Program-made: the position numbers and the translations under genes
Notes under the pieces: model-generated
What the model saw: only the letters and a program-made list of their open reading frames with translations
What the model was told of the DNA's origin: nothing
Databases searched by the model: none
Part shown: positions 60,349 to 60,543 of the stretch, piece after piece
Position numbering within the stretch: position 1 is the stretch's first letter
Layout of the letters: each line of letters begins with the position of its first letter
Assembly: GCA_903907865.1 (NCBI GenBank)
Contig: CAIVPR010000044.1
Location: 124,001-188,000 of the forward strand
Direction: 5' to 3'
Length of the DNA: 64,000 nucleotides
Origin: an uncultured Acidobacteriia bacterium
GTDB taxonomy: Bacteria > Acidobacteriota > Terriglobia > Bryobacterales > Bryobacteraceae

Positions 60349-60543
60349 CAAGTCCGTTGTGGGGCAGGTTGGCAACCCATAAGCGCTAAGATAAGAACAT
60401 TCTGGCTCAAAAATGTTTCGGACGCACCAGCAAAACCGCGTGATCGGCCACTCCAAAACCCCGTCTGCGGCCTTATCTTAGCGCTTATGGGTTGGCAACC
60501 TGCGCGGAGGTTGCCAACCTCCGCACGCGCCCTCCAGGCGCGA
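60349..60543 (+). repeat. Dispersed repeat family 3, copy interrupted by a MITE-like insertion
   Basis: Shares both flanks with 59684-59755. Confidence 0.85.
60377..60490. mobile_element. 114-bp MITE-like non-coding element
   Basis: Perfect 19-bp TIRs CCATAAGCGCTAAGATAAG / CTTATCTTAGCGCTTATGG; flanked by direct GTTGGCAAC (60368-60376 and 60491-60499). Confidence 0.85.

Follow-up and report, generated by a model that had tools for sequence, protein, structure and literature searches.

A 112-bp MITE with IS186/IS421-like ends, inserted in a hairpin of a REP-like repeat in an acidobacterial genome

Introduction

MITEs derived from IS elements are well known. For the element described here, the closest known systems are found in the IS4 family, whose hallmarks are a D(60~110)D(100~150)E spacing of the catalytic residues, a Y(2)R(3)E(6)K motif, and a target duplication of about one helix turn (PMC2266710). 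The IS231 subgroup is described as having the end consensus CAT-------AA--TAA---, duplications of 10-12 bp, and a size of 1450-5400 bp (PMC2266710). Regarding the target, IS insertion into REP sequences has been reported for several families, and every genomic copy of ISRm22, an IS4-family element of Sinorhizobium meliloti, occupies the axis of palindromy of a REP sequence (PMC1525189).

The E. coli elements IS186 and IS421 have similar ends. These ends, CATAAGCGCTAACTTAAG (IS186A of MG1655, IS421), are identical to the end of our element in 16 of 18 positions, and the IS186/IS421 transposases are in the same family as, and 30-34% identical to, those of elements that carry the ends of our MITE. 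Reading the flanks, we find a G/C-ended duplication of 10 bp both around IS186A in MG1655 (GGATCACTCC) and around one IS421 copy (GGAATATCCC). The difference is that IS186/IS421 are autonomous and enterobacterial, whereas the MITE lacks a transposase, and the complete elements nearest to it come mostly from Acidobacteriota.

Here we analyze a 64-kb stretch of DNA (the window) and the genome it belongs to, a draft assembly of 7.5 Mb in 186 contigs (the host). We assign a probability of about 93% to the reading that the window includes a non-autonomous MITE of an IS4-family, IS186/IS421-like IS, mobilized in trans across the hairpin dyad of a REP-like repeat. What is new is the MITE family itself, the connection between it and IS186-like elements, and the fact that it resides in a REP-like repeat.

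The element and its borders

The features of the locus are collected in Table 1. The element is 112 bp long and has no gene of its own. Both ends are formed by the terminal inverted repeat (TIR) CATAAGCGCTAAGATAAG, perfect in 18 of 18 bp, while the number of TIR matches expected by chance is zero (100 shuffles, up to 3 mismatches allowed). The target duplication GGTTGGCAACC is exact in 11 of 11 bp. A first-pass annotation of this DNA had already reported perfect inverted repeats at this place, and the element, its TIRs and its duplication are real, but the lengths it gave (114, 19 and 9 bp, respectively) have to be revised because the C/G next to each end had been counted in. The conserved end consists of 18 bp starting with CATAAG. 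Since the same end is bordered elsewhere by other bases, for example in element L018 and at G005:C285, the C/G adjoining both ends is assigned to the duplicated target and not to the element; therefore the duplication is 11 bp and the element 112 bp.

Table 1. Features of the MITE locus, in window coordinates.
Feature	Position	Strand	Evidence
MITE, no own gene	60378..60489	+	sequence, copies, ends
Left terminal inverted repeat CATAAGCGCTAAGATAAG, 18 bp	60378..60395	+	ends compared across genomes
Right terminal inverted repeat CATAAGCGCTAAGATAAG, 18 bp	60472..60489	-	ends compared across genomes
Target duplication, left copy GGTTGGCAACC, 11 bp	60367..60377	+	
Target duplication, right copy GGTTGGCAACC, 11 bp	60490..60500	+	
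Interrupted REP-like repeat, left part (CAAGTCCGTTGTGGGGCA + target)	60349..60377	+	
Interrupted REP-like repeat, right part (remaining hairpins)	60490..60542	+	
Uninterrupted paralogous REP-like repeat, three tandem hairpins	59684..59754	+	

When the flanks are joined with a single duplication, they read CAAGTCCGTTGTGGGGCAGGTTGGCAACCTGCGCGGA, which regenerates 37 bp identical to 59684-59720 and bears out the insertion event that the annotation had proposed. It had also described 59697-59721 as an unoccupied sister target. That site does belong to an uninterrupted copy of the repeat, but it is a paralogous site and not an empty allele, because the genome contains about 88 near-identical sites of this repeat and the target is among them. 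An orthologous empty site with long flanks was not found in relatives. In sister genomes no usable syntenic counterpart was found for the left flank or for the macro-domain gene on the other side, and the most similar paralogous macro-domain locus, on host contig C74, is homologous only from 60636 onward.

The element strand folds far better than its shuffles (z = -6.2). Could it then be, in the first place, a functional hairpin (a regulatory RNA, a terminator or a recombination site) and not a transposon? We regard this as very improbable. The folding is due mainly to the terminal repeats, and a search of Rfam gives no family match. Moreover, the exact target duplications, and the transposase-bearing elements that carry the same ends, refute a functional hairpin as the primary nature of the sequence.

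Three other loci lie close to the MITE in the window. The macro-domain gene (60636-61186) has a match to PADLOC DarG that is limited to positions 1-148 of 329. Its paralog at C74:102116-102574 is 84% identical and has a longer frame, preceded by what appears by eye to be the end of a putative DarT gene; the window gene looks like a DarTG relic. The gene at 61636-63330 matches the PADLOC dCTPase (anti-phage dCTP deaminase) with an E-value of 3e-147. Finally, 60157-60187 is a perfect palindrome of 31 bp, CAAATTGTCTCGACA-C-TGTCGAGACAATTTG, with similar copies in the sister genomes G001, G006 and G015.

Copies in the host genome

A MITE is expected to be present in several copies, and the search that the annotation had suggested does find two more in the host, at C34:15376-15487 (95% identity to the window copy, taken as 100%) and at C183:444-555 (85%). 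All three copies border the same hairpin, the first, of a three-hairpin REP-like repeat. In a plasmid collection, no MITE copy was found.

The C183 copy has its own exact 11-bp duplication, GGCTGGCAGCC. Because this duplication and that of the window copy are both perfect yet different, and because the two copies have opposite orientations relative to the repeat, they are independent insertions. The C34 copy is bordered by the repeat only on the right; the left duplication is absent, and the MITE adjoins there the 5′ part of an ORF with a relative at 57919-58542 in the window, an arrangement that may reflect an adjacent deletion.

As for the surroundings, pieces related to a terminase-like gene (Terminase_6N) or to a separate ORF downstream of it, with repeats in between, adjoin all three copies (window 57919-59594; L079, the C34 locus; L080:1-313). 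At about 1370-1380 of L079, the MITE end reads outward as ...CTTATG, with the ATG in frame with the adjoining ORF (MFFYLGIDLGQ...).

The presence of all three copies in the same repeat and near pieces of the same gene, together with the single repeat flank at C34, is what one would also see if the copies were not independent, and one occupied repeat had been spread over the genome as the repeats and their neighboring terminase-like genes recombined or duplicated. We consider such a spread improbable. For C183 it is largely refuted by the opposite orientation and by a different exact duplication that matches the copy's own flanks. In addition, the copies do not lie at the same place with respect to the terminase-like genes, and the related MITE of a sister genome has an exact 10-bp duplication of its own.

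The target repeat

The repeat that hosts the insertions is interspersed and consists of GTTGTGGGGCA plus a dyad. It occurs at about 88 host sites (96 pattern hits, 8 of which are the same site on the other strand), and the control pattern gives 0 hits; these and other genome-wide counts come from searches and from scaling up the 64-kb window. The repeat folds as three tandem hairpins (z = -5.0), and it is short, high-copy and palindromic, as expected of a REP. The first stem varies by compensation (GGTTGGCAACC, GGCTGGCAGCC, GGATGGCATCC, GGGTGGCACCC), and at one of its positions all four base pairs occur. Y1 transposase genes are present in the genome; a RAYT was sought among them, and the ones inspected are not flanked by the REP-like repeat.

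Autonomous relatives and the IS4 family

A scan of 85,488 species genomes with the exact 18-bp end reports 65 stretches, many of them from Acidobacteriota. L018 (1346 bp) and L034 (1391 bp), from other genomes, are complete elements with two perfect ends and one transposase ORF each. L035 and L062 are complete as well: each encodes its transposase in an intact ORF, and no end has more than one mismatch. L027 and L066 have paired ends at the same size. Most complete elements measure 1324-1391 bp; L035 has 1563 bp. The existence of such elements agrees with the annotated proposal that an IS sharing the ends of the MITE mobilized it in trans. The host itself holds a decayed element of this kind, and no intact one was found there.

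The two transposases tested, those of L018 and L034, match the NCBIfam IS4-family model NF033592 with 141 and 143 bits, above its cut-off of 115 bits. Four aligned transposases have in common D113, D171 and E314 as well as the Y(2)R(3)E(6)K motif (Y307-R310-E314-K321). The catalytic spacing is D113-57-D171-142-E314, where 57 is marginal to the stated minimum of 60, and the duplications of 10-11 bp correspond to about one helix turn, as in the IS4 family. We judged the likeness to IS231 from ends, duplications, motif and size. The 18-bp end fits the subgroup consensus exactly, and duplications and motif also agree with it, but the complete elements, mostly 1.32-1.39 kb, fall below the 1450-5400 bp of the subgroup. 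IS231 targets are GGG-N5-CCC-like and resemble the targets here.

Taken together, the element is short and without a transposase, has TIRs and a target duplication, is present in multiple copies, and shares its ends with autonomous IS, as a MITE should. An exact parent IS did not emerge from the comparison, in which only few bases match beyond the ends (the best matches, ends included, are 25 bp with L065 and 22 bp with L005), and the 18-bp end, searched as text in the literature, had no match. Separately, the same end is present twice, in inverted orientation, at L065:2626-4384, where the two copies enclose a gene for a FAD-binding monooxygenase-like protein and no transposase. The arrangement is like a mobile insertion cassette; its right end lies at the contig edge, where a duplication is unreadable.

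What is left of the transposase in the host? The sole match, at C84:8385-8761, is in two pieces that cover model positions 225-370; this 3′ part lacks both catalytic aspartates and is followed by one perfect 18-bp end (C84:9192-9209). The host assembly yielded no intact transposase, although a draft of this kind, in 186 contigs, could conceal one. Because only this 3′ remnant and one intact end remain, mobility of the MITE was in trans, and in the host it has probably ended. Among 101 genomes searched, long open transposase copies are found in a different family within the order (G062, G065, G067 and G076), and G098, from yet another family of the class, has one, while the matches listed for the host's own family are only fragments. 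A related element of 112 bp, the one with the exact 10-bp duplication mentioned above, is found in the sister genome G005, along with a different element type of 134 bp. A third type, of 163-173 bp, is present in L010 and L019.

Target choice

The flanks of 72 ends, nearly all from other genomes and not independent when they share a genome or an element, give a consensus of exactly 11 bp, G74 G62 G47 C47 ... G38 C43 C62 C74 (percent), which peaks at positions -11/-10 (G, 74% and 62%) and -2/-1 (C, 62% and 74%). The dyad symmetry of these flanks is 2.07, compared with 1.33 in shuffles (sd 0.11). A preference for G/C-ended dyads is thus well supported.

How often would such a preference hit the repeat? 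There are 422 GG-N7-CC sites in the window (about 49,500 scaled to the genome), and a random choice among them would target the repeat in about 0.2% of cases. Perfect dyads number only 11 in the window, with four inside repeat copies, and an enzyme that simply prefers perfect G/C-ended dyads would target the repeat roughly 1/10 of the time. Recognition specific to the repeat is not proven, because the preference for perfect dyads alone gives that rate. In the JACQZT genome (L007, L014, L020, L033, L042, L052 and L056), many such ends sit in one target, GTGTACTGTCC, with other flanks that differ; it is a second repeat serving as target, and not a REP.

Discussion

We propose that the MITE was moved by a DDE transposase of the IS4 family, which came in trans from another element that has since been broken or lost. 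After binding to the 18-bp ends, the enzyme would have cut the MITE out and inserted it at a staggered break of 11 bp. For two copies the flanks show that the cuts straddle the dyad axis in the first hairpin of the REP-like repeat, and for the third they show it on one side. The location in the hairpin would follow from a transposase preference for 11-bp, G/C-ended dyads (GGG-N5-CCC-like), which the repeats supply. ISRm22 differs in that it is autonomous, has direct repeats of six bp, and involves another host and another REP, whereas here the insertions are MITEs with 11-bp duplications.

Few mobile elements have been described in this bacterial group, to which the finding adds a well-documented MITE family. 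It also links acidobacterial IS4-family elements to IS186/IS421 of E. coli. It is, besides, an independent, MITE-borne example of IS insertion at the axis of a repeat hairpin, a choice of target that keeps insertions on intergenic safe ground and can interrupt the hairpin. The system offers a ready test of whether dyad shape or sequence determines the target. A bolder idea, which we hold as tentative and rather doubtful, is that the transposase of this clade recognizes the REP-like hairpin itself, by dyad shape and sequence, with the whole MITE family living inside the REP population. If so, the entire MITE family in these bacteria would be a second-order passenger of an older family of REP repeats.
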